Virus record (IMG/VR): IMGVR_UViG_3300002052_000043
Coordinates: 1 to 39,849 of that record
From: a virus
Direction: 5' to 3' (one strand)
DNA: 39,849 nt
The notes beneath the pieces were generated by a model. That model did no database searches. It was given only the letters and a program-made list of their open reading frames with translations, and had not been told where the DNA came from. A program made the position numbers and the translations under genes. Below are positions 1 to 39,849 of the stretch, one piece after another. Position 1 is the first letter of the stretch, and every line of letters begins with the position of its first letter.

Positions 1-359
1 AGGGACTGCTGGGCAAGCCAGCGCAAAGCGACCTCTTCCAAGTCCATCGGGACCTGCGAGTTCGCACGCGTTTCATCGGCCAGCGGGTGAGCAAGAGCGT
101 ATTGAAGCGTCTGGTACGTTGAGCTCGAAACCCCATAGCCCGCCCGAGAATACTTGTCGCCGTAGGCGCGCGGCTTCATCTCGTCCAGGAACCAGTATTT
201 CTTGGTCAGGATGATGTAAGTCCCGTTGTCTTTGTCCACCGGCACATTGGCAAATGCCCGAGCGGCCACAAAGCGGCTGTCGGCCTGAGCAAATGCAAGC
301 AGCATGTTGGTCAGTATTGGATCGATAGGTTGAACGTCTAAAGCTGTTGGTAAAGGCAT
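1..359 (-). CDS. Major capsid protein (N-terminal 119 residues, partial)
   Basis: The gene begins with ATG at 359-357, preceded by a strong AGGAGGT ribosome site, and runs off the left edge, so only about 119 residues are visible. The N-terminus (MPLPTALDVQPIDPILTN) followed by an FVAARAFANVPVDKDNG segment and a KKYWFLDE segment resembles HK97-fold major capsid proteins, which form the icosahedral shell. The position fits: it follows the protease/scaffold and the decoration protein, the usual order in this kind of head operon. Fold assignment is from pattern and context, since the P- and A-domains lie outside the window. Confidence 0.75.
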   Translation of the reverse strand, partial: MPLPTALDVQPIDPILTNMLLAFAQADSRFVAARAFANVPVDKDNGTYIILTKKYWFLDEMKPRAYGDKYSRAGYGVSSSTYQTLQYALAHPLADETRANSQVPMDLEEVALRWLAQQS

Positions 360-3591: not shown

Positions 3592-3808
3592 TCACCTTTA
3601 ATAAAAAAGTTCCCTTTGGCGAAGTTCCATCTGCTTCAAACCAATATGAATCTTGATCACTCATAACAACAATTCGTTTAGATGGCAAAATAGCCCCTTC
3701 AATAATTTTGGTGTTTGGATGATTCCAGGGATCAAACCAAACAATTTCAAGAGAAATATCTTTATCTGTAAATAATGGACCGACGATCTTGTCAAGAAAA
3801 TGCGTCAT
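3581..3808 (-). CDS. Small protein of unknown function
   Basis: 75 residues starting at MTHFLDK, chosen because GGAGGTGATGGG lies directly before this ATG and the ATG overlaps the upstream stop (ATGA). The sequence has short hydrophobic strands (ISLEIVWFDPWNHP, SKRIVVMSDQDSYWFEAD) suggesting a small beta-rich domain; no family was recognised. It sits between the sulfotransferase-like gene and the head morphogenesis gene, overlapping both, so it is co-translated with them. Base composition here (3600-3800) is more AT-rich than the surrounding head genes, a possible sign of later acquisition. Confidence 0.55.
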   Translation of the reverse strand: MTHFLDKIVGPLFTDKDISLEIVWFDPWNHPNTKIIEGAILPSKRIVVMSDQDSYWFEADGTSPKGTFLLKVNDA

Positions 3809-4314
3809 CCCATCACCTCCATCTGATGTGCCCCCCAATCCTTCCGCTCCTCAACCCACAGCGGATGATAGGCGAGGCTTTCATACTCAATCTCGAATGG
3901 ATTTACGATCTTGTCTTTCTGCCATTTGTCCCAATACCAGTATTTGAGTTCGGCGATATTCCCTTCCGCGACCTCGTATCTCATCAATTCGACCGACTCC
4001 CAGATCCACTTGATCCGCTCCTGGCTGGCGATGATGTCTTCGGTTTCTCTTCGCATGAGAACCACGGCCACGCTATCGTGAGCTCCAAGCATGTGCACCC
4101 ACCGGCATAGAGCGGGACAGTGGACGACCAGATTTTCGTCCAGATTGCGGGCCATGAGTCCGCTGAGATGGTAAAGGCTGTCGGTGTGAAAATCCCGCTC
4201 ATCGACGAAGATGTGTCCTGTGTCATGGGCGATCATCCTGGCGCAGATGCGTGTGCCGGATCGCTGAGGTCCGGTGACGAACACGCGGTTGAAAGGCTTG
4301 AGAGGTTCAAACAC
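3805..4314 (-). CDS. Sulfotransferase-like P-loop protein
   Basis: 169 residues from a GTG start overlapping the portal stop, with AAAGG upstream. The N-terminus VFVTGPQRSGTRICARM (about residues 11-27) matches the 5'-phosphosulfate-binding loop of sulfotransferases (GxxRSGT). VVLMRRETEDIIASQERIKW (about 85-103) matches the R-x3-D-x3-S element that binds the 3'-phosphate of PAPS. Sulfotransferases move sulfate from PAPS to sugars, proteins or small molecules. The protein is shorter than typical cellular enzymes. It lies between portal and head morphogenesis genes, so it may modify a virion component or be a moron. A different P-loop activity, such as a kinase, is possible. Confidence 0.6.
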   Translation of the reverse strand: MFEPLKPFNRVFVTGPQRSGTRICARMIAHDTGHIFVDERDFHTDSLYHLSGLMARNLDENLVVHCPALCRWVHMLGAHDSVAVVLMRRETEDIIASQERIKWIWESVELMRYEVAEGNIAELKYWYWDKWQKDKIVNPFEIEYESLAYHPLWVEERKDWGAHQMEVMG

Positions 4315-5723: not shown

Positions 5724-6995
5724 TTAATATCGCTTCCACCTAGATTTCTCGCCTACTGGCTCTTCTAGGAATTTGGATTCTTGAATAGGTTGTGTCTCGG
5801 GTAAACTCCTCGCTCGGATCGCCGGGATGATTTCTGTGATAACCCAAACCAAAGCATCCAGTCGGTTCGGCGACCATTTGGAAACCCCCGGAACCCAGGT
5901 GCAGAGCTCGTCTTCCAGATCGGGGAATTCGCCCACATGATGAATTCTACCTTGTTCGTACAATGCCGCAACTGGCTCTGCCCGAACTGCTTTGCCTCTT
6001 GTGGCGTGGACATCTTTGTAAGATACTAGCTCACCGCCTTCAAGCCTGCGGATGGTATTCTCCACCATATCCCCGCCGTAGTTCTTTTCTCCTACGATCC
6101 GGTCGGCTTCATTATGGTGGTATGCCGTGAGAACCTCCGAGCCCCATTTGGCAGGCGAAGCCTTGAGGCTCCTGTCCTCTATGATATATCCATCTCCGTC
6201 TTTTCCCAAAGCACCAACGATGATCCCGCACTCGGTTGCACCGCCAGGAGGATCAACCCCTACAATAACACGAACTAGAGCAGGGTGCGAAGTGACACGA
6301 TGGTCCTCGATCATCTCCTGCCGGCGCCATAGTGCCATTGGGTCGTCTTCGATGTCCTCGGCAAGGATCTCGGCGCGGTAAGCGATTGTCGTCATATCTA
6401 ATGTGATTTCGTCTAATGCCTCTTGACTCAAATGGGGATTATCGTGACTACTAAAAACAAAGGTTTCCCAGCGTCCAGATTGATCTTCTTTTGCTTTCTT
6501 AAATAATTCCTTAGAATGATGTTTGCCGCGCTTTTGCGTATAAATAAAAGTTGTATTTCCATCTGTATCTAACATCATCGGAGCTCCAACCAAACTCCAA
6601 GCGTCTTCATCCATCTGCTGATATTCATCAAGTATTAATTCATCAGCGTAATCGCCTCTCAATGAATCTGCATTCCACGCAGTTTTTGCTCTAATGCGCT
6701 GCTCCGTACCGGGAAGTTCAATGATATGTTTGGTTTCATTCTTATAGTAAATACCTGCTTCAATTGGTTCTTTTAGTGCAATCTTACACTCAAACCAAAA
6801 TCGATCAACTTGTTCTTGGGTGGGTACAGCATAGAGAATTCGATGGCCATCGAGAAAATCATCAACGGCTTTAATGGATGCGCCTGTTGTTTTGCCACTT
6901 CGTCTTCCAGCACGCACAATCTTGCGCTTGGCCTTGCTCTCAATAAATGCGCGCTGTTTTTCATGTGGAGTTTTGAGACGAACGACCAATTCCAT
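5724..6995 (-). CDS. terL: Terminase large subunit
   Basis: 423 residues. Walker A is RAGRRSGKTTGAS (GRRSGKT at about 30-36) and Walker B is ADELILDEYQQMD (about 117-129). A downstream C-motif-like FIYTQKRG segment follows. The C-terminal nuclease domain shows VGVDPPGG, VGEKNYGGDMV and SPNRLDALVWVI, which supply the acidic metal ligands of the RNase H-like fold. The enzyme pumps DNA into the procapsid and cuts concatemers. Its ATG overlaps the end of the small subunit gene by 35 bases; AAGAG precedes it. Confidence 0.93.
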   Translation of the reverse strand: MELVVRLKTPHEKQRAFIESKAKRKIVRAGRRSGKTTGASIKAVDDFLDGHRILYAVPTQEQVDRFWFECKIALKEPIEAGIYYKNETKHIIELPGTEQRIRAKTAWNADSLRGDYADELILDEYQQMDEDAWSLVGAPMMLDTDGNTTFIYTQKRGKHHSKELFKKAKEDQSGRWETFVFSSHDNPHLSQEALDEITLDMTTIAYRAEILAEDIEDDPMALWRRQEMIEDHRVTSHPALVRVIVGVDPPGGATECGIIVGALGKDGDGYIIEDRSLKASPAKWGSEVLTAYHHNEADRIVGEKNYGGDMVENTIRRLEGGELVSYKDVHATRGKAVRAEPVAALYEQGRIHHVGEFPDLEDELCTWVPGVSKWSPNRLDALVWVITEIIPAIRARSLPETQPIQESKFLEEPVGEKSRWKRY

Positions 6996-10911: not shown

Positions 10912-11131
10912 GATTGAGGAAGCATCTGATTCGCCAATAATAGAATTATTGATTCAGCGAAAACGCATGGCCCGTGTGTTGAGGGAGTTGGCGGAATTGG
11001 CTAAATGGGCGAAAAAAGCACGGGAAGTCTATGAGATAGTTGGATTGAATAAAGTTGAAATGACGGCCTGGATTGAATTATTCAATGCACTCAATAATAT
11101 GTCCGACGATGCGAAGGAGCTGTTACGATAA
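10895..11131 (+). CDS. Small helical protein of unknown function
   Basis: 78 residues; starts at one of two consecutive ATG codons, directly after the third GCAGGAG junction. The sequence is almost wholly helical with Lys/Arg/Glu/Ala-rich segments (LRELAELAKWAKKAREVYE). It overlaps the end of the fused paralogue gene by 17 bases. No family recognised; the role could be DNA binding or protein binding. Confidence 0.5.
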   Translation: MMWLDEIEEASDSPIIELLIQRKRMARVLRELAELAKWAKKAREVYEIVGLNKVEMTAWIELFNALNNMSDDAKELLR

Positions 11132-11153
11132 TTTACGTTATCGAAAGCATAAA

Positions 11154-11975
11154 ATGTGGAAATCGGGATTAGTTGAGTGGATCGAGGACGAAACGGCATA
11201 TATTTCTGTTGTGTTCTCTTGGCAAAAACAAGAAGCATATCAGAAATGTGTTTGGTATAAGTCGTTAGGTTATAAGGTAATGGTGGGTGGTCCCGCTGTA
11301 TCTTATGATCCCACCTTCTTTGATGATGTTGCAGAAGTCGGAGATTTTTATAGGGATGCAATTAAACTACATAATCCACAAGCGACTTTCACGAGTCGTG
11401 GTTGTATTCGTAATTGCTCATTTTGTATTGTTCCTAGCATAGAGGGTAATCTTTATGAATTAGAGAATTGGCCGATTCGACCAATCATTTGTGACAATAA
11501 TCTATTAGCAACAAGTTTCAATCACTTTGATTCAGTTATTGATAAACTCAAGCCATTAAAAGGAATTGATTTTAATCAGGGTTTAGATGCTAGACTTCTT
11601 ACCATTCATCATGCTGATCGGTTACGAGAATTAGATACTAAGTGTATTAGATTGGCATGGGACCATTCAAGGCTAGAAAAACAATTTATGAAAGCCTTTG
11701 AGATTTTGACCGCATCGGGCTTTTCAACATGGCATATTAGAGTTTATGTTTTGATTGGATATAACGATGATCCTGAAGATGCCCGATACCGACTAGAAAC
11801 GATAAAGGGCTTGAAAGCATGGCCGAATCCAATGCGATACCAACCCATTGATTCATTACAAAAGAATTCATATGTAAATGGGAAATGGACCGACCAAGAA
11901 CTAAAGAATTATATGCGCTATTGGAGTAGGCAAAACTGGTTGTGGAAGGTTCCGTTTGAAGAATACTTAGGATAA
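11154..11975 (+). CDS. Radical SAM protein
   Basis: 273 residues from MWKSGLVEW. TFTSRGCIRNCSFCIVPS contains the radical SAM iron-sulfur motif CxxxCxxC (Cys84, Cys88, Cys91). An N-terminal VMVGGPAVS segment resembles the end of a B12-binding-type domain, and DFNQGLDARLLT and YVLIGYNDDPEDA fit later strands of the TIM barrel. Radical SAM enzymes cleave S-adenosylmethionine to start radical chemistry; the substrate is not predictable. The start has no clear ribosome site; an in-frame ATG at 11073 would overlap the preceding gene. GC content falls here, consistent with separate acquisition. Confidence 0.8.
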   Translation: MWKSGLVEWIEDETAYISVVFSWQKQEAYQKCVWYKSLGYKVMVGGPAVSYDPTFFDDVAEVGDFYRDAIKLHNPQATFTSRGCIRNCSFCIVPSIEGNLYELENWPIRPIICDNNLLATSFNHFDSVIDKLKPLKGIDFNQGLDARLLTIHHADRLRELDTKCIRLAWDHSRLEKQFMKAFEILTASGFSTWHIRVYVLIGYNDDPEDARYRLETIKGLKAWPNPMRYQPIDSLQKNSYVNGKWTDQELKNYMRYWSRQNWLWKVPFEEYLG

Positions 11976-13306: not shown

Positions 13307-13441
13307 ATGGACACAAGCGCGACTTTGACTATTAATCATGGTGCCTACTACTTAGGTGGGCGCGGCCCAAAGCTCCTAGTCGTGCTTCGTGTCCACCGCG
13401 ACCACCTAAATAGTGGGCATCAGCTATTTAATCATGAATGA
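13307..13441 (+). ncRNA. Structured leader with pseudoknot potential (or 44-residue ORF)
   Basis: Arm B (13342-13359) pairs with B' (13402-13419) over 18 positions with two non-Watson-Crick pairs, extended by CGCGG (13361-13365) with CCGCG (13396-13400). The 30-base apical loop holds GCTTCGTGTCCA (13384-13395), complementary with one bulge to TGGACACAAGC (13308-13318) upstream, giving an A-B-A'-B' pseudoknot order. The element ends at the methyltransferase start (13434). The same stretch is open as a 44-codon frame (13307-13441, MDTSATLTINHGAYYLGG...) that overlaps the methyltransferase start, so a small coding gene is an alternative. No ribosome site is obvious for it. Confidence 0.45.
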
Positions 13442-14531
13442 ACTTGCCACTCGCAAAAATATAATCCCGGCCCTATCAGTTGGTCCCTTCGTTGTAACGC
13501 GCACGGGACTTATATTAGATCGTGTTCCCGAGTGGGAAGAATGGCAGGCGTTTTTTAATGGGATGCACAACATAGGTGACGCGGTTCAATGGAACATTGG
13601 CGATGCTCTTTGTCAAATAGAAACGCAATACGGCGATAAAGGAACACAACTCTTATCGGCCTTTCCTGATTATGAATATTCAACTTTAAACAAATATAGG
13701 TGGGTCGCAGAAAATGTTAAATTTGTTCTACGTAGAATAAATTTGAAATGGTCACATCACGAACAAGTAGCCGCGCTTGAACCAGAAGAACAACAAAAGT
13801 GGTTGGAAAAAGCAGAACGCAAAGAATGGTCTGTCAGAGAACTTAGACAGGCGATTAATGGGGCAGCAGGTGATAGCAGAAGGGCTTGGCTTAGAGTCTA
13901 TCAAGTTTGGGGGTTTGCGTTTCGCGATGAACGTTTTGGCATGGAACACCCCGGCAATATACCAGCACAAGTTTTAATGAACCTCAATTATTACTATACT
14001 GACCCAGGCGATCTTGTTGTAGATCTATTTGCGGGCGGAGGTGTCACAATAGACGTCTGTAATAGTGATGATTTAGATTTTGGCAGTCGAGAATGTCTTG
14101 CCTATGATATTGATCCGATCAGAAGTGATATTCAAAAAAGAGATATTGTCAAACAAGGATTACCAAACTTCAAAAAAGCAAAAATGATCTTTCTTGATCC
14201 CCCATATTGGAAACAAAAAAAAGGCGAATATAACGATCATGAAACCAATCTTGCTAATATGTCACTTGATCGTTTTCATGATGAGCTCACAAAGATAATA
14301 ATTGAATGTCAAGAGAAAACAGAATATACAGCACTCATTATCGGCCCAACCCAAGAAAACTGGGGCATTATTGATCACGCTGCAGAAATCATTTACCGCA
14401 TTGGTCCACCGTGGCATAGAATACAAGTGCCTTATTCAACACAACAACACGGTGGTGAATATGTTTCTAAAGCCAAGGCCAATAAAAAGTGGCTTTATCT
14501 AGCAAGAGATTTAATGATATGGAAGATGTAA
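13434..14531 (+). CDS. Site-specific DNA methyltransferase with N-terminal regulator-like domain
   Basis: About 365 residues. Motif X-like PGNIPAQVLMNLNYYY precedes motif I VVDLFAGGG (about 195-203); motif IV is FLDPPYW (about 253-259), the DPPY of N6-adenine or N4-cytosine methylases. The first 140 residues (WNIGDALCQIETQYGDKGTQ, YRWVAENVKFVLRR, KEWSVRELRQAI) resemble LmbU/ParB-like helical DNA-binding domains, an unusual fusion that may give specificity or autoregulation. A GTG at 13413 is a possible longer start, inside the hairpin. It overlaps a putative nuclease gene downstream, so it could protect phage DNA or belong to a restriction-modification pair. Confidence 0.85.
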   Translation: MNELATRKNIIPALSVGPFVVTRTGLILDRVPEWEEWQAFFNGMHNIGDAVQWNIGDALCQIETQYGDKGTQLLSAFPDYEYSTLNKYRWVAENVKFVLRRINLKWSHHEQVAALEPEEQQKWLEKAERKEWSVRELRQAINGAAGDSRRAWLRVYQVWGFAFRDERFGMEHPGNIPAQVLMNLNYYYTDPGDLVVDLFAGGGVTIDVCNSDDLDFGSRECLAYDIDPIRSDIQKRDIVKQGLPNFKKAKMIFLDPPYWKQKKGEYNDHETNLANMSLDRFHDELTKIIIECQEKTEYTALIIGPTQENWGIIDHAAEIIYRIGPPWHRIQVPYSTQQHGGEYVSKAKANKKWLYLARDLMIWKM

Positions 14532-29339: not shown

Positions 29340-29642
29340 TCACTCCTCAGCCTCTATGTCCAGCCACGCCTCCAAGGTGTTGCCGCTATAAACCCATTTG
29401 AACTCTAGCCGATAATCTTCGCCTGCAGTCAAGCCAATGACCAAGGGCGAAGTGATCAAAACCCCTGTCGTGTCAATCGTTCCCGAAAGATTGGTCTCCG
29501 AAATATTTACACCGGTACTGTCTTTCAAGACACAAGTTGCATCACTTGAATAACCGCCCCAGTTGGTCGTGTCCAAGACATAAGCGACCCTTTCGTCTTC
29601 GCCCTGTTTATGTGGATTTTCTTTGACATGTCTTACGGTCAT
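29340..29642 (-). CDS. Small structural protein, beta-sandwich-like
   Basis: 100 residues. TCVLKDSTGVNISETNLSGT and ITSPLVIGLTAGEDYRLEFK have the alternating pattern of a small beta-sandwich resembling a fibronectin- or immunoglobulin-like module, typical of virion decoration domains. The stop overlaps the start region of the connector gene (TGACC ATG). It could be a head or neck accessory protein. No specific family recognised. Confidence 0.5.
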   Translation of the reverse strand: MTVRHVKENPHKQGEDERVAYVLDTTNWGGYSSDATCVLKDSTGVNISETNLSGTIDTTGVLITSPLVIGLTAGEDYRLEFKWVYSGNTLEAWLDIEAEE

Positions 29643-31075
29643 TTTTCCTCCAGGGTCAGCACAAATGATCGCTCATATAAATCGAGAACAAAAGAACGAT
29701 CATCTAAAGTTAATGTCACAATACTGGCAAATAATCCAACAATATCCCATGCTAACGTTAAATCTTTGTTCACTGACTCTAACAAATCCCACTGCAAACC
29801 TAGGTCTTTATTTGCCAATTCTGCAATGTCCCAGTTCAGCACTTGATCCTGATTTGCGGTTACCAGAATATCCCAAGTTAGTGCCTGGTCCTTATTGATC
29901 GTATTAAACAAATCCCACTGCAGTATCAAATCCTTGTTGACAGCACCTTCTATGTCCCACACAAGAATTAAGTCCTTGTTAACTACACCTTCCATATCCC
30001 AAACAACAACCAAATCCTTATAGGCAACCCCTTCCATATCCCACACGAGCGATAAGTCTTTATTGATTAGGCCGAAGATGTCCCATGCTAGAACATGGTC
30101 TTTGTTCACTAAGCTGAACAAATCCCATTCTGCAGCTAAATCTTTGTTGATTAACCCAAAGACATCCCAAGCAAGTGATAAATCCTTTTGAATAACACCT
30201 TCCATGTCCCAAACAAGGGTGAGATCTTGATAGATAAGTTCCGCAATATCCCACTGAAGAGCATGATCCTTGTTGACGAGGCTCAAAATATCCCATTGAA
30301 GTGCTTGATCCTTATCAACCGCGTTCAAGAGGTCCCATTGGGCGGCCAGATCTTTATTGATAATCTCGGCCAGATCCCATTGAGCGCTCAGGTCTTGATA
30401 GACCTGAGCCAGACCGCCGATCCTGGCATCTTCGGCTTGAACTTCATCAAAGTAAGTCGTCGAATAGGAACCAACATGCCAGTTATAAGCACCTACTCCG
30501 AAGTTAAGAACAGGAGACGTTAGTTCGGATCTTTTTCCACTCCCCGTCCAATCTCCTATGCTAACGCCATCAATCCACAACTCAACATAAACGTTGGTTC
30601 CAGACCAATCATAAAGAAATTCGATCTCATATTCCGTGTCTTCGCTGATCGAATATTCTATTCCACATTCTTGATAATCAGCGCTATCGTGGGCTCTCAT
30701 TCTTATGGTATCCCCTTGAGGATCGAGATGAAGCCCTATATACATACTTCCACCATCTGTGCTCCCGGCATATTCATTGATGCCGGCCAACAGACAGCAA
30801 TAGTCATAACTACAGTTACCGTGTCCGGTTGTCTGTAAAAGGAAATAAACATATATTTTGTCATTCGCGGGATTCGTGATATTTTTGCATCCAAAAGCCA
30901 CATCTCCTGATGAGCCCGATGTTGTATATCCTCGAAAACTATAGCTTCCCTCAAGCGCTGGCGAGCTGACCGTATCTACCACACCAGTGCCAGTTGTATA
31001 GGTAGAATCACAATCGTTAAGATTGTTTTCTTCGAAGTCTAATGTTGAAGGAGAATTAGTAAATACAGTCGTCAT
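29639..31075 (-). CDS. Fibre-like protein: LamG-type domain plus 16 copies of a 14-residue repeat
   Basis: 478 residues. The first about 225 residues (STLDFEENNLNDCDSTYTTG, YEIEFLYDWSGTNVYVELWI, WHVGSYSTTYFDEVQAEDAR) look like a LamG/concanavalin jelly roll that binds sugars. Residues about 226-449 are sixteen nearly perfect repeats of NKDLxLxWDIxxLV type, 14 residues each. The last 29 residues (VTLTLDDRSFVLDLYERSFV) are a cap shared with the next large protein (31412-35071). Strand-like L-x-L-x-W-D-I spacing suggests a beta-helical or solenoid stalk, probably oligomeric. It likely is a virion fibre. Confidence 0.65.
   Translation of the reverse strand: MTTVFTNSPSTLDFEENNLNDCDSTYTTGTGVVDTVSSPALEGSYSFRGYTTSGSSGDVAFGCKNITNPANDKIYVYFLLQTTGHGNCSYDYCCLLAGINEYAGSTDGGSMYIGLHLDPQGDTIRMRAHDSADYQECGIEYSISEDTEYEIEFLYDWSGTNVYVELWIDGVSIGDWTGSGKRSELTSPVLNFGVGAYNWHVGSYSTTYFDEVQAEDARIGGLAQVYQDLSAQWDLAEIINKDLAAQWDLLNAVDKDQALQWDILSLVNKDHALQWDIAELIYQDLTLVWDMEGVIQKDLSLAWDVFGLINKDLAAEWDLFSLVNKDHVLAWDIFGLINKDLSLVWDMEGVAYKDLVVVWDMEGVVNKDLILVWDIEGAVNKDLILQWDLFNTINKDQALTWDILVTANQDQVLNWDIAELANKDLGLQWDLLESVNKDLTLAWDIVGLFASIVTLTLDDRSFVLDLYERSFVLTLEEK
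29729..30400 (-). repeat. 42-bp coding repeat array, 16 units
   Basis: The minus strand encodes 16 consecutive 14-residue units, with the plus-strand signature TCCCA (for W-D) recurring about every 42 bases. The units differ at many bases but keep Asp, Leu, Trp-Asp and hydrophobic positions, so selection acts on protein. Not a CRISPR array. Confidence 0.9.
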
Positions 31076-31411: not shown

Positions 31412-34400
31412 TCATCTTTCATCCAGGATCAATGTGACAGAACGTTCATCAAGTGTAAGATCAAAAGATCGCGGATAAAGCGTGAGATCAACAATCCCTG
31501 TATATAGCACAAAAATATCCCACACCAAGGTTAAATCTTTATTCATCAACTGATCCATATCCCAAACCAGTGTCTGACTACTGCCAGCCAGCTCAAATAT
31601 GTCCCAAATAAGATCTTGGTCTTTATTAACGATTATCAGGATGTCCCAGGTAAGCTCCTGATCTTTTTCAATCGTAACTAGAATGTCCCATTGGGCATCT
31701 AAGTCTTTGCTGATGAGTTCCGCAAGATCCCATTGAAGGCTCAAATCTCTGTTCGCTAGTTGGGCAATATCCCAGACAAAATCCTGATCTTTTTCTATGG
31801 ATGTAAGAATATCCCAATGCAGCTCCAGATCTTTACTGATAAATTCCGCTATATCCCAGACAATAGACAAATCCCGATAAATAACACCACTGAGATCCCA
31901 AACAAGGGTCAAGTCCCTGTTTGCCAATCCCGCTATATCCCAAGTAATTGTTATATCTTTTTCAACCAAAGCCCCGATGTCCCATTGAGCATCAAGGTCT
32001 TTGTTGATCGTTCCTAGAATATCCCATTGAAGATCGAGATCGGCATTGGCGAAGCTCAGAATATCCCAAACAAGAGCCATGTCCTGATAGACGCCCGCAG
32101 CTAGAATATCCCAAACGAGATCGAGGTCTTTGTTTGCAAGTTGGCGAATGTCCCAAGTTATAGATTGATCCTTGCTGGCAAGATTTAAGAGATCCCATTG
32201 AAGATCAATATCTTTGTAAACCCCAACTCCAATATCCCAAACGATTGCCAAATCCTCATAGGCTAATTGGGCCATATCCCAGATTAATTCAATATCCTGA
32301 TTGACAACATTGAAGATGTCCCATACCAAAGACTGCTCTCGATAGACTGCGTTCAATAAATCCCATTCAAGCGTCAAGTCTTTATTCGTGAGATTTCGCA
32401 GATCCCACTGAAGCGCCAAGTCCTGGTAAACCCCACCGATGATGTCCCAGACGAGCGACAGATCTTGACTGGCAAGCTGGGAGATGTCCCACTGAAGGAC
32501 AAGATCGTTGTTCACGAGTTGGGCGATGTCCCAAGCGAATGATTGGTCTTTATTCGCAACAAGGAAAATATCCCATTGAGCCGTCAGATCACTAATGGCA
32601 AGCTCCGTCAAGTCCCACTGCAGAATCAAATCATTGTTTGCTAATTCGGCGATGTCCCACGCAAAAGATTGATCCCGATTTGCCAGGACGAATAAATCCC
32701 ATAAAGCCGTCAAATCCTTGTTGATCAGATTTTGGAGATCCCACTGGAGCGTTAAGTCTTGATAAACACCAGCACCTAAAATATCCCATACAATCTCAAG
32801 GTCTTTGTTGATAAGATTAACAATATCCCACTCGAGTGTTTGATCCTTGTTGACCATTGAAAGGATGTCCCAAACCAAGGACTGATCCTTTTCGACCACA
32901 ATGAGGATGTCCCATTGTAAAGACTGATCTTGGCTGACGAGCTCCGCAATGTCCCATTCGAGCTGAAGCTCTTGATAGACCGAGCCGACTATATCCCAAA
33001 CTAGGGTCACGTCCTGATTGACGAACGATAAAATATCCCATTGCAAAGCGCTGTCTTGATAAACGGAATTGAGCAAATCCCACTGAAGAGCCAAATCGTT
33101 GCTTGCCAGTTGCGCCAGATCCCAAAGCAAAGATAAATCTTGATGCACCACGCCCGACATATCCCAGACAAGCACAAGATCGAGATTCGCAATCTGGGCC
33201 ATATCCCATTGGAAAGTCTGGGAATTGGCGGCTAAAACAAAGATGTCCCAATCTGCGGATAAGTCATGATTAACAAAGTTGAATAAATCCCATTGAAGAG
33301 TTAATTCTTTATTGATCGCACCAAATAAATCCCATTGCAATTCGAGGTCTTTAGTCGCAAGTTCGGCCAGATCCCATTGGAAGGCTTGATCTTGATAGAT
33401 GAGATTAAAGAGATCCCAGGCAAGAGACAAATCTTTATTGACTATGCCGGAGAGATCCCACTGAAGCGCTAAATCTTTATAAGCGAGCTCGGCAATATCC
33501 CACTGAAATTGCTTATCCTGATTTACAAGAGAGAAGATGTCCCATTGAGAGGCTTGATCTTGATATACCAAATTCAAGAGATCAAATTGGGCAGTTAAAT
33601 CCTTGTTGACGTTTTCGGCAATATCCCATTGAGCAGCGAGATCTTGATTTACTGTTGCCCCTCCAGCAGAATATTCAATATGGAGTTTGGCGGCATAAGA
33701 ACTATCTTGATCGTATAAATAAACACCTAAATCTCTAAGGGTATTTTCACTACCCTGAATAATACAGAGCATTGGTGCGCCGGAGGAATAATCATAAGTT
33801 CCAATAAGTTCCTCAATAATTGTTGTGACATTAATTGTTCCTTCCGCTAATTCCGAAAGCCAGCCAGGGCCTCCCAAACCCTCATTAGAATATTTAATAC
33901 TTGTAGAAGTTGGGGTTCGTCCAGAAATATCATAATAATCAGCCACGAACGCAGCCGGGTCGTCAGTATCTTCAAAATATACATTATGATCTGGCTCATC
34001 ATAATTTGCGTGATAGACATACGCATCAATTGTGGCTGTAATTATTGATGCTCCCGATGGAATAACTATACCTCGCCAGCAAAATGCAACGAATTCGTTT
34101 GTATAATCAACTATTGTATAGCTTGCCGTAGGATCACAAGTTCCTGTGCTGGATTCTCTTGAATCGTCTGCACCTTCGGCAATTGTTTTATCAACTGTCG
34201 TATCAATCTCGATTGGGTAAACAGCAGATTGAATCCAATCCAAAGGAATGCGATGTTGAACAAATAGATATGGGCCTTGTTTATAAAGCCTGAAAATTCC
34301 TATTAGTTCAGTTGGCTCATATTCTTCATCTTCGGGATTATCGCTTTCATTAGATTTCGGAAGCTGGAAATGCCAAAGTGTTTTTTGTGTTGATTTCTGG

Positions 34401-35071
34401 CGAAATTCTACATACCCTGATGTTTCTACTGGATTGTTGGGATTTTCGTTCCACTTTATATCATTTACATAAATCTCAAGATCGTTGGATTTTTGAAAAA
34501 TAAATTCCAATTTAAGACATGGATTACCGCCATCTAAGATATATTGCTCTGGAATTGGCAAGGCCGCTAAGTTCTGGATAATCAGACGCTTATCTAAGCG
34601 GGTAGTTTGTGCCTGCCAGCGCAAATCTATATCGTTGCCGAAAGCACCCGTCCAATATAAAGCATCATCATCAACAGATGCCTCAACAGATTGTGGATCG
34701 GCAATTGCTTGGATTTGATCTAGGTCATTCGTGTATTGAAGCTGTAGGGGCTGAAAGGCGATGCTCTGGCCGCTGTTGGGGTCAACATATTTGACAACCT
34801 GCCCATAAGAGAAATTGGACAAGGCATAGGCATTGTAGCCCGCCTTGATCATCTCGTAATCCCAAGGTGCGGTTCCAGCCTGCCACGCGGTGTCGATTTC
34901 CTGGTCGAAACTTGCCCCGTAGTGAAGCGGTCCGATGGAGCAGTCCAGCACATAGCGACCAGGAATAGACGGAATGCTGTGCTTGAGCGATTTTTCTTTT
35001 CGCTCAAATACCTCCGCATCTGGATATTTGGCCTTTACCTTGGCCCTTATTTCTGCGGCTGGATTAGCCAT
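31412..35071 (-). CDS. Giant fibre-like protein with about 51 copies of a 14-residue repeat
   Basis: 1219 residues. The first about 474 form a beta-rich head: IPGRYVLDCSIGPLHYGASF, then WRGIVIPSGASIITATIDAY, GPGWLSELAEGTINVTTII and LYDQDSSYAAKLHIEYSA, the latter resembling a DNRLRE-type adhesion module. Residues about 475-1190 are about 51 tandem 14-residue repeats (typical unit NKDLTLVWDIFVL); two units have one extra residue. The last 29 residues (VDLTLYPRSFDLTLDERSVT) are homologous to the cap of the 478-residue protein. The stalk probably forms a long beta-solenoid. It is most likely a virion fibre; its host receptor is unknown. Confidence 0.7.
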   Translation of the reverse strand: MANPAAEIRAKVKAKYPDAEVFERKEKSLKHSIPSIPGRYVLDCSIGPLHYGASFDQEIDTAWQAGTAPWDYEMIKAGYNAYALSNFSYGQVVKYVDPNSGQSIAFQPLQLQYTNDLDQIQAIADPQSVEASVDDDALYWTGAFGNDIDLRWQAQTTRLDKRLIIQNLAALPIPEQYILDGGNPCLKLEFIFQKSNDLEIYVNDIKWNENPNNPVETSGYVEFRQKSTQKTLWHFQLPKSNESDNPEDEEYEPTELIGIFRLYKQGPYLFVQHRIPLDWIQSAVYPIEIDTTVDKTIAEGADDSRESSTGTCDPTASYTIVDYTNEFVAFCWRGIVIPSGASIITATIDAYVYHANYDEPDHNVYFEDTDDPAAFVADYYDISGRTPTSTSIKYSNEGLGGPGWLSELAEGTINVTTIIEELIGTYDYSSGAPMLCIIQGSENTLRDLGVYLYDQDSSYAAKLHIEYSAGGATVNQDLAAQWDIAENVNKDLTAQFDLLNLVYQDQASQWDIFSLVNQDKQFQWDIAELAYKDLALQWDLSGIVNKDLSLAWDLFNLIYQDQAFQWDLAELATKDLELQWDLFGAINKELTLQWDLFNFVNHDLSADWDIFVLAANSQTFQWDMAQIANLDLVLVWDMSGVVHQDLSLLWDLAQLASNDLALQWDLLNSVYQDSALQWDILSFVNQDVTLVWDIVGSVYQELQLEWDIAELVSQDQSLQWDILIVVEKDQSLVWDILSMVNKDQTLEWDIVNLINKDLEIVWDILGAGVYQDLTLQWDLQNLINKDLTALWDLFVLANRDQSFAWDIAELANNDLILQWDLTELAISDLTAQWDIFLVANKDQSFAWDIAQLVNNDLVLQWDISQLASQDLSLVWDIIGGVYQDLALQWDLRNLTNKDLTLEWDLLNAVYREQSLVWDIFNVVNQDIELIWDMAQLAYEDLAIVWDIGVGVYKDIDLQWDLLNLASKDQSITWDIRQLANKDLDLVWDILAAGVYQDMALVWDILSFANADLDLQWDILGTINKDLDAQWDIGALVEKDITITWDIAGLANRDLTLVWDLSGVIYRDLSIVWDIAEFISKDLELHWDILTSIEKDQDFVWDIAQLANRDLSLQWDLAELISKDLDAQWDILVTIEKDQELTWDILIIVNKDQDLIWDIFELAGSSQTLVWDMDQLMNKDLTLVWDIFVLYTGIVDLTLYPRSFDLTLDERSVTLILDER
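31502..33649 (-). repeat. 42-bp coding repeat array, about 51 units
   Basis: About 2.1 kb of minus-strand coding repeats, each 42 bases (two are 45), translating to xKDLxLxWDIxxLx. On the plus strand TCCCA or ATCCCA recurs at each W-D position. Unit sequences are diverged at synonymous and surface positions. The regular Trp-Asp and Leu positions show protein-level conservation. Confidence 0.92.
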
Positions 35072-35538: not shown

Positions 35539-36078
35539 CTAAGCTGCGGTATCGCCCTCGCAGCGCATCGTCACACTCTCTGCTGACTGCGCTGATGCAC
35601 TGGCCGAAATCTGCCGACGAAGCCAGAGTCCGAACCAATCGCCCGCCGCAAGATCCGATCCTGTCCCCGGGAAATCCTTGCCCGTTGCCTTGCTTGTGGC
35701 ATCGGACCATCCACCAAGGCCTGTTGGCGCGGTGCTTTCATTGGCAATCGATTGAATGCTTCCCGTGGTTTCATCAGAAGGTTCTTCAACATCAAACGAA
35801 ATATCATCCTCAGCATTACCGGTGTCTGTTTGGATCCAGACCTTGCCGCTTGTCAGCGCCAATGATCCGTGATTGTTCAAAAAACCCACCGCTCGATATT
35901 CCGTGTCGCCCGACGAGGCCTCATCGCCCGTCACATCATCGAATAGGTTGTTATCCCCAGCACCGACATCGTTTGATGCCCGATAACTTCCGAGCGAAGC
36001 ATCCGGATCGGATTGAGCTGCGTTGTGCGTTGCGGCTCCTGTCAGCTTGTAAAGAAGATCACTTTGTGAGATTGCCAT
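35539..36078 (-). CDS. Structural protein of the fibre region
   Basis: 179 residues, AAAGGAGAAAG before its ATG. Ser/Gly/Ala/Asp-rich, beta-type sequence (LGSYRASNDVGAGDNNLFDD, KVWIQTDTGNAEDDISFDVE) with ISASASAQSAESVTMRCEGD near the end, similar in character to phage appendage or head-fibre proteins. It overlaps the end of the glycosyltransferase gene. Assignment as a virion protein is based on composition and position. Confidence 0.55.
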   Translation of the reverse strand: MAISQSDLLYKLTGAATHNAAQSDPDASLGSYRASNDVGAGDNNLFDDVTGDEASSGDTEYRAVGFLNNHGSLALTSGKVWIQTDTGNAEDDISFDVEEPSDETTGSIQSIANESTAPTGLGGWSDATSKATGKDFPGTGSDLAAGDWFGLWLRRQISASASAQSAESVTMRCEGDTAA

Positions 36079-36748
36079 TTTCTTTCTCCTTTTCTTTCAT
36101 TCTGAGCCACTGATCCCAGGTGGCCTCACCCAATCTAAGATGAATAGCGTGTAATGTCGTGTCTACGTAAATCTTGTATCCTGCCTCCTTAGCTTTTCTG
36201 CAAAAGAAGAAATCAGTTGTGCCTCTTTCGCGGTAAGAAAACCACTCCGGTCCCTCGAAGCTCTTTTCGTCGATCTCGAGCCAGTTTGGGATGAGACTTT
36301 CAAAGACTTCACGCTTGACCAAAAGCGCTCCGCTCCCCGTCGCGTCCACTTCCACGAGCCCATCCTCAAATTCCTCGATTTTGTCGTAGATGTAGCCAAA
36401 TTCATCCTTGCGCTTGTATTGATAAAGATGCGGCTGCGGCGCGACGTGCTTGTGGGTATAACCTGCACCAACAATGTCCAGATCATGCTCGGCCAGCCTC
36501 AAGGGCAGCTCTGGCTCGATGATCATGTCTTGTTCGAGGAAAAAGATATGTGTGCAAGGACTTCGTAGAAATCGGCACACAAGCCCGTTCTGCGCACGAT
36601 GCAGTGAAATCCCATCACAGGAATCATAGAAATGCTTATCGATCCCAACATTGCAGAGATGAACGATCAGCGCGATCAGATTATTCGTAAACCGCGGCCA
36701 GATCGTGCCATAATAAGGAACTGCAACAAAGATGCGCGCATCCTCCAC
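36059..36748 (-). CDS. GT-A type glycosyltransferase
   Basis: 229 residues. RIFVAVPYYGTIWPRFTNNL at the N-terminus is the nucleotide-sugar binding start of a family-2-like GT-A fold. HIFFLEQDMIIEPE (about 68-80) carries the acidic pair that binds the metal, and DATGSGALLVKREVFE with DFFFCRKAKEAGYKIYVDTT are the acceptor-side and late motifs of the fold. Phage glycosyltransferases can modify virion proteins or host surface sugars. It is embedded in the structural operon. Confidence 0.75.
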   Translation of the reverse strand: MEDARIFVAVPYYGTIWPRFTNNLIALIVHLCNVGIDKHFYDSCDGISLHRAQNGLVCRFLRSPCTHIFFLEQDMIIEPELPLRLAEHDLDIVGAGYTHKHVAPQPHLYQYKRKDEFGYIYDKIEEFEDGLVEVDATGSGALLVKREVFESLIPNWLEIDEKSFEGPEWFSYRERGTTDFFFCRKAKEAGYKIYVDTTLHAIHLRLGEATWDQWLRMKEKEKENGNLTK

Positions 36749-37071
36749 TAGACATCTCCAGCGTGCTTATATCCCATGATCGAAACGGTAGACGTACCTG
36801 CCCCACCTGAACGACAGAACTTTAGTATTGAAGTCCCGTCATAGCCGTCCAGTTCATACGGTGCTAGTGCTTTGGTGAACAGCACACCGGTATTGTTGGT
36901 CGGATCGGTCCCGTCGGATCGCATCCTGGCATCGGTTGTTTCCACTGAAATAAACAAAACTGATGCATCTTGGACTGTGCTGTTGATCGCCACGGCGGTT
37001 GAATTTGCGAGGCTCATCACCTGAAATCCGGCCGGGATAAGTCCAGCTTTTCGTATTCTAGTTATTGCCAT
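36748..37071 (-). CDS. Structural protein of unknown type
   Basis: 107 residues from MAITRIRKAG, preceded by GGAGAAAGTAGC. KAGLIPAGFQVMSLANSTAV, DASVLFISVETTDARMRSDG and GTSILKFCRSGGAGTSTVSI are beta-rich with Thr/Ser/Gly loops typical of small virion decoration or neck proteins. It lies directly before the glycosyltransferase, within overlapping genes. Confidence 0.5.
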   Translation of the reverse strand: MAITRIRKAGLIPAGFQVMSLANSTAVAINSTVQDASVLFISVETTDARMRSDGTDPTNNTGVLFTKALAPYELDGYDGTSILKFCRSGGAGTSTVSIMGYKHAGDV

Positions 37072-37072
37072 G

Positions 37073-37429
37073 CTACTTTCTCCTTTTGTTCTCGCGTGAA
37101 ATGCCAGCTCTGGCAGTGCTCTCCGCGACGCCGAACACTTCGGCGATGTGTTCATAAGGCAAATCTTCCTCATAATACATGATCCACATCAGCGCATCAC
37201 GGTATCGTGGTTTCAGGCCAGGTTTACCGTTCTCAGGTGGTTTAGCTGAAGACCCTAAAGGCTTGCCCCTGCGTGACCCGGCCTGTTTTTCAACTGGTGT
37301 CACAAAGCGATCTGTGCTGATCAAGGTCTGATCGTTCTTGAAGCCTTCGGGCTCCCAAAGATCACCGGGTTTGTATTTCTTGCCGTTGTAAGTAAACCCC
37401 ATCTTGACAACATATTCCACGTCGCTCAT
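37073..37429 (-). CDS. Protein with C-terminal helix-turn-helix
   Basis: 118 residues. The N-terminal half (YVVKMGFTYNGKKYKPGDLW) looks like a small beta domain seen in virion or connector proteins; the last 35 residues (YYEEDLPYEHIAEVFGVAES plus TARAGISRENKRRK) form a sigma-like or resolvase-like helix-turn-helix with a basic tail. The two halves are joined by a Lys/Pro-rich linker (RRGKPLGSSAKPPENGKPG). Possible role: regulator within the late operon or a DNA-binding virion protein. Confidence 0.5.
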   Translation of the reverse strand: MSDVEYVVKMGFTYNGKKYKPGDLWEPEGFKNDQTLISTDRFVTPVEKQAGSRRGKPLGSSAKPPENGKPGLKPRYRDALMWIMYYEEDLPYEHIAEVFGVAESTARAGISRENKRRK

Positions 37430-37671
37430 TTTTTGGCCTCCACTTCTGCTTGAATACGATCCTGTTTTCTTGGTGCATCCTCAATGTGTCGTTTGATGGC
37501 CGGTGCAAGCTCGCCATGGCTAGGTCTGAGCCCTCCCCAGTTCACCATCGGAACGTTCGGTTTCCTGTGCATCACCAGTCCACAGTCACATAGGATTGCG
37601 GTACTGTATAGCATCCTGACTTCGACTTCCCTTTCATGTCCTTCTGGGCAGAGATAAATAAATTCAGGCAT
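37426..37671 (-). CDS. FmdB-like zinc-ribbon protein
   Basis: 81 residues from MPEFIYLCPEGHEREVEVRM, the FmdB/regulatory zinc-ribbon start (Y-x-C-xxxGHxxE), followed by ILCDCGLVMHRKP (CxC). The rest is a charged linker. Such proteins are common in Chloroflexota and phages and may bind nucleic acid. The start overlaps the stop of the TIM-barrel gene, tying the two together. Confidence 0.65.
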   Translation of the reverse strand: MPEFIYLCPEGHEREVEVRMLYSTAILCDCGLVMHRKPNVPMVNWGGLRPSHGELAPAIKRHIEDAPRKQDRIQAEVEAKK

Positions 37672-38554
37672 ATTGACTGATCGCCCATTCGATCTCTTCA
37701 AGCATCCAGGGCTCGATCTTGCGATGCTTCTGAAAATTGTGTTTCGGTGCGGTGAACATCCGCGCGCCGCCCGCTTTCAAAATCGGCACGTTTTCGCGCA
37801 TCCCCTGTATGTACTCCGTCCCGGCGAAGTAAGTCATCGCTTCCCATTTTTGATTTTCTTGGATGCGTTCTCTGATGTGTTTTCTCCCGATATGTTGCAC
37901 ATAGGTAAAGATGATCCCATAATGCTTTGCGAATGGAAATGCGCTGAATAACGCACCATAAACCGGCGACCAATACTCCGGGTCTGTGTACGGATGGTAA
38001 GCCGTCCAGATCTCTCCATGTTGCAGTTCCATTAATCTCTGACGATCCACAACCCACGATGTGAACAGTTCCATCGGGTAATCCATACGACCATGTGCCG
38101 GGAAAAGATGTAGTGCGAATTCCCCATTTGCGGGGATGGCATAGATCACCTGAACTTCATCGCCTTGATAGCGATCGATGATCTCTTCAATGAACTCATC
38201 TAACTCGGCGGCAAGTTCCACATTTTCATAATTCGGCACGCCGTAAGCCTGCCCGCGGATTTCTCGACTGTAAAAGTAGCTGTCCGGCTTCCATCCCGGT
38301 ATCGAATAAACAAAAGGAATAAGTGCTTTCAGCCCAGCGCGACTCATGTTCTCCACAAACGCATCGAGGATCGACCAGTCTAACGGCGCATCCGCGCTGG
38401 GCTGCATGATGTCCCAACGAACTGCAGCTTGGAAATAGATCGTTTTCACACCGGCACTTTTGAGCATCTTCATCTCATCAAGCGTCAATGCCACATCTTC
38501 CATGCGGTTGTTCAGATCCATGATGATGATATATTCGTCGGGATCGATAAACAT
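37664..38554 (-). CDS. TIM-barrel glycoside-hydrolase-like protein
   Basis: 296 residues from MFIDPDEYI (start overlaps the upstream stop as TAATG; TGGAAG before it). KMLKSAGVKTIYFQAAVRWD, IMQPS and LDWSILDAFVENMSRAGLKA then LIPFVYSIPGW and VIYAIPANGEFALHLFP (Asn143-Gly-Glu145) follow the beta/alpha alternation of GH42/GH14-like beta-galactosidase-type barrels, with Glu145 as possible acid/base. The substrate cannot be predicted and a second catalytic Glu is not certain. It lies between the ABC binding protein and a zinc-ribbon gene. Confidence 0.5.
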   Translation of the reverse strand: MFIDPDEYIIIMDLNNRMEDVALTLDEMKMLKSAGVKTIYFQAAVRWDIMQPSADAPLDWSILDAFVENMSRAGLKALIPFVYSIPGWKPDSYFYSREIRGQAYGVPNYENVELAAELDEFIEEIIDRYQGDEVQVIYAIPANGEFALHLFPAHGRMDYPMELFTSWVVDRQRLMELQHGEIWTAYHPYTDPEYWSPVYGALFSAFPFAKHYGIIFTYVQHIGRKHIRERIQENQKWEAMTYFAGTEYIQGMRENVPILKAGGARMFTAPKHNFQKHRKIEPWMLEEIEWAISQYA

Positions 38555-39582
38555 TACTTCCAACGCTGCCTTACCCGTTCACCATAAGCGTAGTATTTGT
38601 CAACATCTTCGGCCAGGATGATTGGTGCGGGATACCAATTTGCGAATTGGATTTCCTCACCGTGAAGCAGATCCACTAGGAGCTCAACCGCTCGATAGGT
38701 TTCTTCATAAAGCGGTTGACCCACAATCGCATAAACCCATCCCTGGCTCAACCAGTCTAGGTTCTGCTCCGAATAATCCATGCTGACGACCATCACATCG
38801 CCCGGTTCCTTGCCCGCATCTCGTAAGGCGGTCGCCCACGTTGTCGAGCCCGCACCTGTCGTCGAGTAAGCCCCGGTGATGTCGGGATGTGCAGTCAGGA
38901 TCGCCGCCGCTTTGGCGATGGCCGCTGCGGGTTCCCCGCCTTCCTCTTCGGGCGGGAACCCTTCGATCCCCGGACAGAGCTCCTCCATACGTGCTGTAAA
39001 AGCATTCACCGCGGGCGTTTCGATGTCGTTGGGCCCGAAGAACGTGGTTGCGATCGGTCCTTTACACTCCAGCTTTTCGGCCATCATATCGGCCACACGC
39101 TCGGAATAATCAACCGAATTCGGCGCAACCCAGGAATTCGCGATGTCGCCCTCGAGCTCGTCATCCAGTGCGATGTGAAACCCAACGATCGGGATTCCCG
39201 ATCCCATGATGTCGCGCATGTTTTCGTACAGGAAACCATCGGGGTAATAGACCACGCCCGATGATCCGAGGCTGATGCACTCTTCGCCCCGAGCGATCAG
39301 CGCCGAAATATCGACGTAATCGATCCCGGCCATCACGCAGTCCACGTCATAGTCCTCGCACGCCTCAAAAAAGCCCAGCATCATGATCCTTACGATGGGA
39401 TGCTGATTGTTCGGCACGACCATGCGGAACGGGTTGCCTCCTTGCAGGTCGCGGTTAGTCGGTTCCGATGTCTCTGTGGGTAACACCTCCTCCGTAATAA
39501 CGGCAGTCGGCTGTGGCTCAGGTTTGGTAGAGCAAGCTGCCAGCACCAGCACAACCATAAGAAAAAGCCTGGTCTTTTTCAT
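38554..39582 (-). CDS. Sugar-type ABC transporter substrate-binding lipoprotein
   Basis: 342 residues. MKKTRLFLMVVLVLAACST is a signal peptide with lipobox VLAAC (lipidated Cys17), followed by a Pro/Thr/Glu-rich linker (PQPTAVITEEVLPTETSEPT). VVPNNQHPIVRIMMLGFFEA, GIPIVGFHIALDDELEGDIA, ITGAYSTTGAGSTTWATAL and VMVVSMDYSEQNLDWLSQGW follow the ribose/galactose-type periplasmic binding protein (Peripla_BP_4-like) fold. These bind a sugar outside the membrane and deliver it to the permease. The permease gene end overlaps its start. No phage structural role is evident. Confidence 0.85.
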   Translation of the reverse strand: MKKTRLFLMVVLVLAACSTKPEPQPTAVITEEVLPTETSEPTNRDLQGGNPFRMVVPNNQHPIVRIMMLGFFEACEDYDVDCVMAGIDYVDISALIARGEECISLGSSGVVYYPDGFLYENMRDIMGSGIPIVGFHIALDDELEGDIANSWVAPNSVDYSERVADMMAEKLECKGPIATTFFGPNDIETPAVNAFTARMEELCPGIEGFPPEEEGGEPAAAIAKAAAILTAHPDITGAYSTTGAGSTTWATALRDAGKEPGDVMVVSMDYSEQNLDWLSQGWVYAIVGQPLYEETYRAVELLVDLLHGEEIQFANWYPAPIILAEDVDKYYAYGERVRQRWK

Positions 39583-39849
39583 ATCTGAGATTCCTCCATA
39601 ATGTCTAATTTAATTTTGCGACGCGCATCAAGGAACATTGCCAATGACAACGCCGCTCCGATGACGATCATTTGCAGATAAGGCGACATGCCGACTGCGA
39701 CCAAGCCGTTCGCCAGAACCTGCATCGTTGCAAGCCCCAAAAACGCACCGATCAAAGATCCTTCATAGCCGTAGATGCTCCCCCCGCCGATCGCACAGGC
39801 GGCGAGAGCTTGAAACTCCCATCCTTGGCCCAACAAAGGTTGTGCGGCA
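39579..39849 (-). CDS. ABC transporter permease (C-terminal part, partial)
   Basis: About 89 residues visible; the gene continues past the right edge. FQALAACAIGGGSIYGYEGS, LIGAFLGLATMQVLANGLVA, GMSPYLQMIVIGAALSLAMF follow the C-terminal membrane helices of RbsC/BPD_transp_2 permeases, where 'A-x-x-I-G-G-x-S-x-x-G-x-x-G-S' is the conserved coupling region. The stop overlaps the start of the substrate-binding lipoprotein, the normal order permease - binding protein for some sugar uptake systems. The ATPase gene is not in the window. Confidence 0.75.
   Translation of the reverse strand, partial: AAQPLLGQGWEFQALAACAIGGGSIYGYEGSLIGAFLGLATMQVLANGLVAVGMSPYLQMIVIGAALSLAMFLDARRKIKLDIMEESQI

Follow-up and report, generated by a model that had tools for sequence, protein, structure and literature searches.

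Sugar-transporter genes as probable cargo of a variable late-operon slot in an uncultured tailed phage

Introduction

Do the genes of a sugar ABC transporter at the right edge of a viral contig belong to the phage, or do they come from a bacterial chromosome that was joined to it? The contig in question, called the window below, is a linear and incomplete virus record from IMG/VR with a length of 39,849 bases. A sequence-only reading had described the end of a permease gene, a lipobox-bearing sugar-binding protein (SBP) and a third, hydrolase-like gene at this edge, and had left it undecided whether they are metabolic cargo of the phage or part of a captured host operon. Here we place these genes within the genome layout of the phage and its relatives and weigh the explanations for their presence.

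Results

Genome layout of the phage

The virus is an uncultured tailed phage. In its left part, the minus strand of the window encodes, in transcription order, the small and large terminase subunits, portal, head morphogenesis protein, neck protein, protease, scaffold and the start of the major capsid protein; in its right part it encodes the permease end, the SBP, the third protein, an FmdB-like protein, a helix-turn-helix (HTH) protein, a small structural-type protein, a glycosyltransferase-like protein, tail proteins, the major tail protein, the tape measure protein and a GH25 endolysin, the last of which implies a peptidoglycan-containing host. Early genes lie on the plus strand, among them one for a radical SAM protein (phrog_9298, 11073-11975) near a DNA methyltransferase gene (13413-14531). 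No tRNA or Rfam match was found in the window, and no integrase was recognized among the genes scanned in it. Both edges are cuts, the left one within the major capsid gene and the right one within the permease gene. A circle joining position 39849 to position 1 had been considered earlier; the ends of the 39,849-base window have no terminal repeats.

Three contigs from other samples (L002, L003 and L082), whose nucleotide sequences are 99.6 to 100% identical to the window, represent the same virus and independently confirm window positions 8 to about 17,000. All three stop short of the right edge, and a search with a 24-mer from this edge found no second contig containing it. The protease gene (761-2143) is about 72 bases shorter in the window than in L082, the difference lying near 1070-1081, and L003 matches L082 up to the point where L003 stops; this is strain variation. 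The large terminase (5724-6995) shares 51.6% identity with that of Methanosarcina virus MetMV, far above any other record of the phage collection, and this MetMV-like terminase coexists with the GH25 muramidase in the same phage. Additionally, two large tail proteins (31412-35071 and 29639-31075) have a common PHROG domain (phrog_6079), and a homologue of the larger one (44-46%) lies soon after the terminase gene in L006, L007, L009 and L036.

The permease fragment, the SBP and the third gene

The three genes were confirmed at the right edge of the window, all on the minus strand (Table 1). The permease fragment matched the NCBIfam models MglC (E 7e-14), RbsC (1e-12) and GguB (1e-12), with the match running to, or close to, the last model positions; the MglC match covers just the C-terminal part, the N-terminal two thirds of the protein fall outside the window, and a piece so short gave no match to Pfam BPD_transp_2. 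The SBP matched Peripla_BP_4 over nearly the whole profile (Pfam, E 1.1e-21, positions 3-258 of 258), and its lipobox LAAC with Cys17 is followed by a P/T-rich linker. Its relatives of solved structure include 3g1w, 6sw4 (arabinose-binding), 4y9t and 7x0g, and its own predicted structure was too poor for a structure search. Owing to truncation or divergence, the equivalog matches of the SBP and the permease have bit scores far under the cut-offs, and since those of the SBP are so low, no sugar substrate can be named. A fused double ATPase of the RbsA/MglA type was not found in the window, which lacks the stretch that separates the start of the capsid gene from the permease.

Table 1. Genes of the window at and around the cargo slot
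Feature	Position	Strand	Remarks
ABC sugar permease, RbsC/MglC type, C-terminal 89 aa	39579..39848	-	open at window edge; NCBIfam MglC, RbsC, GguB
Lipoprotein-type sugar-binding protein (SBP), 342 aa, complete	38554..39582	-	Peripla_BP_4, lipobox
296-aa orphan protein (third gene)	37664..38554	-	weak GH14 similarity; start coupled to SBP stop by TAATG
FmdB-like zinc-ribbon protein, right-hand slot border	37426..37671	-	homologues in all slot-bearing relatives
HTH protein, sigma-70 region 4-like	37073..37429	-	PF08281 2e-6; after FmdB in L113, L094, L092, L116
Small structural-type protein after HTH	36748..37077	-	homologues (35-49% identity) downstream of FmdB in many relatives
Glycosyltransferase-like protein	36059..36748	-	phrog_1574 4e-20
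Major capsid protein, first 119 aa, left-hand slot border	3..359	-	phrog_1005 3e-20

Relatives of the SBP were absent from the viral contigs (single-protein query), the genome contigs and the phage collection, and the plasmid search with it yielded one distant Nonomuraea SBP on an 11.85-Mb record listed as a plasmid. The permease found matches in the phage collection at 34-39% identity, the annotated ones being bacterial records such as Salmonella ribose operons. A profile built from three SBPs picked out L126 as the sole viral contig, where it matched a fragment at the end of the contig that is apparently the edge of a provirus. The glycosyltransferase, used as a single-protein query, found no relatives in the viral contigs.

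The third gene was called as a TTG open reading frame (37664-38563), of which the ATG start at 38554 is the likelier one. It had been read as TIM-barrel hydrolase-like and glycosidase-like, for which just two observations speak: a similarity to GH14 (PF01373) with an E value of 0.04 and 13.3 bits against a cut-off of 27, below the family score, and an alternating strand/helix pattern in a single-sequence AlphaFold2 model (pLDDT 38) that carries no confidence and was too poor for a structure search. The protein, which has no recognized family, may possibly be an enzyme resembling (beta/alpha)8 glycosidases. Neither a hydrophobic signal-like stretch nor a signal peptide was seen in it, and no relative was found in the viral contigs, the phage collection or the PDB, nor a convincing one in plasmids.

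Gene junctions and codon use

The overlaps of 1 to 8 bases described before were read from the sequence as 4 bases between permease and SBP (ATGA), 1 base between SBP and third gene (TAATG) and 8 bases between third gene and FmdB-like gene (ATGCCTGA). The three genes lie directly upstream of the FmdB-like gene on the same strand and run through the ATGCCTGA overlap into this gene and the structural genes. All readable cargo frames are intact and translationally coupled. A codon-use comparison, which the sequence-only reading had proposed, showed the cargo genes to lie inside the range spanned by late genes of the phage.

A variable glycan cargo slot in related phages

Relatives were found through the capsid protein, which shares about 50-65% identity between the window and these contigs, and the cargo was read in 19 contigs that contain both slot borders, some of them near duplicates and many of them fragments. 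The order is constant, with the capsid gene, the cargo, the FmdB-like gene, the HTH or small gene and the structural genes; as a rule a small decoration-like protein gene directly follows the capsid gene before the cargo, and the distance from the capsid to the FmdB-like gene ranges from 1.7 to about 6 kb. Homologues of the small structural and tail genes of the window lie downstream of the FmdB-like gene. The transporter genes of the window thus occupy the right-hand end of the slot. Their location between phage genes is given on one side by the sequence and on the other by comparison with the relatives; a place downstream of the major capsid gene is what the relatives have and what is predicted for the window virus, whose edges are unjoined in the contig. 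The earlier expectation that the cargo would follow the capsid genes if the genome closed is supported by this order.

The capsid-to-FmdB region of L092-L121 is a hypervariable glycan cargo slot of this uncultured clade. Glycosyltransferases or glycan-modifying enzymes, identified partly by Pfam and otherwise by sequence inspection, are present in the cargo of all 19 contigs, and a family-2-like glycosyltransferase in 18 of them. A fused group-1 glycosyltransferase (GT4) and methyltransferase is frequent, while UDP-galactopyranose mutase, formyltransferase, radical SAM protein, further methyltransferases and a P-loop sulfotransferase-like protein are single cases. Slot, strand and borders are the same in L092, L094, L096, L098, L099, L101, L113, L116 and others; the cargo there attaches or modifies sugars, whereas the slot of the window holds sugar-uptake genes. 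Profile searches that matched the control genomes detected neither a Peripla_BP_4 protein nor a BPD_transp_2 permease in the relatives' records, which gives no hint that the transporter genes have been retained for long.

The ATGCCTGA junction recurs in L092, L094 and L113, where the TGA of this junction is again the stop codon of the cargo gene before it, and these upstream genes are unrelated to one another and to that of the window. Importer genes in the place where the relatives have sugar-attaching enzymes suggest a swappable cargo site. Two further genes of the window have slot counterparts. The glycosyltransferase-like protein of Table 1 is homologous to slot glycosyltransferases of L094 (7e-7) and L083 (2e-5, phmmer) and, unlike these, is encoded downstream of the small structural-type gene and ahead of the tail genes. 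A P-loop gene (3805-4314; sulfotransferase-like, sub-threshold) lies between the portal and head-morphogenesis genes, and its homologues within the slot of L113 (2e-57) and L099 (1e-42) indicate that it has moved between sites. Since both genes match slot genes yet lie elsewhere, cargo genes move within the clade.

Discussion

According to the above-described analysis, the slot content, as far as sequence similarity can tell, is a set of ribose/galactose-type (CUT2) sugar importer genes plus one more gene. We consider it probable, with some reserve, that the three genes are true phage cargo, carried in a variable late-operon slot of a clade of uncultured tailed phages whose host contains peptidoglycan, and the transporter genes are most likely phage auxiliary transport genes. 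Against this reading stand the facts that the slot contents are only partly seen and that the window contains neither the N-terminal part of the permease nor an ATPase, as well as the single contig at the right edge, the absence of an SBP or sugar permease from the relatives and a third protein of no confident family or fold. Between metabolic cargo and host operon, the cargo alternative gained from the relatives' slot, and the host operon became unlikely in view of the overlaps, the 8-base junction and the codon use.

A recent capture of host DNA that plays no role in infection and will decay is an unlikely origin: it would fit with transporter genes that are absent from all relatives and incompletely seen, whereas the intact, translationally coupled frames and a codon use like that of the phage's own genes do not resemble a passing insertion. 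We also judge it quite unlikely that all three genes belong to a host chromosome attached to the phage contig, whether as an assembly chimera, a concern raised earlier, or as a provirus edge. The region is covered by one contig only, the transporter genes sit at its edge, sugar ABC genes are ordinary in hosts, and host flanks are frequent in IMG/VR records. However, the overlaps leave no join point between the genes, and the one at the FmdB-like gene recurs in relatives; the same order and shared 8-base overlap in these relatives make a chimera or an adjacent host chromosome unlikely. The genes also share slot and strand with the relatives' cargo, their codon use is phage-like, no integrase turned up among the genes scanned, and searches of species genomes with capsid patterns or profile revealed no prophage of the clade.

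Some phages are known to encode lipoproteins that exclude other phages, usually small products of single genes. It is improbable that the SBP and permease serve such competition, by altering the envelope or masking a sugar-transporter receptor to exclude superinfecting phages: an exported-type lipoprotein in a late operon and a slot otherwise holding genes likely to change glycans would suit this role, but here a permease of the transporter's own family is encoded together with the SBP.

If the three genes are phage cargo, they would be co-transcribed with the virion genes. The SBP would be exported and lipidated, capture a sugar or sugar derivative and pass it to the permease; the ATPase would come from the host or from a gene in the stretch missing from the contig. 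Once imported, the sugar may nourish the infected cell or supply the glycosyltransferases of the phage itself, and the cytoplasmic third protein may act on it. A more far-reaching version, which we hold to be doubtful, is that a complete sugar importer and a processing enzyme have replaced the glycan enzymes in a single modular slot of the late operon. Uptake late in infection would then bring sugar into the dying host and feed virion production or the phage glycosyltransferases.

Compared with the CUT2 importers RbsB-RbsC-RbsA and MglB-MglC-MglA, the window likewise has a Peripla_BP_4 SBP gene adjacent to, and overlapping, a fragment that matches the C-terminus of MglC/RbsC permeases; here, in contrast, the genes lie in a phage late operon, the permease precedes the SBP, and no ATPase is seen in the window. 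The phosphate-binding PstS belongs to another binding-protein family than the present SBP. Phage-borne ABC genes that include a binding protein have been described for phosphate, namely PstS in 31 of 153 cyanophage genomes (PMC10452541) and a pstSCAB cluster on the contig of a soil phage (PMC10987575), which differ from our case in the substrate, phosphate instead of sugar, and in lying outside a glycosyltransferase slot. Sugar ABC transporter genes were also reported within a viral region of Paracoccus (PMC10169181); that case is a provirus in a host genome, whereas the slot described here lies among virion genes in a clade without detected prophage. A limited literature search turned up no report of sugar ABC transporter genes inside a late-operon glycan slot.

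If the phage-cargo reading is true, this clade would exchange sugar-related functions, from glycosylation to uptake, in one fixed slot behind the capsid gene. Such a slot would provide a defined place to seek new auxiliary genes in uncultured phages, and phage-borne ABC transport would be extended from phosphate to sugars.
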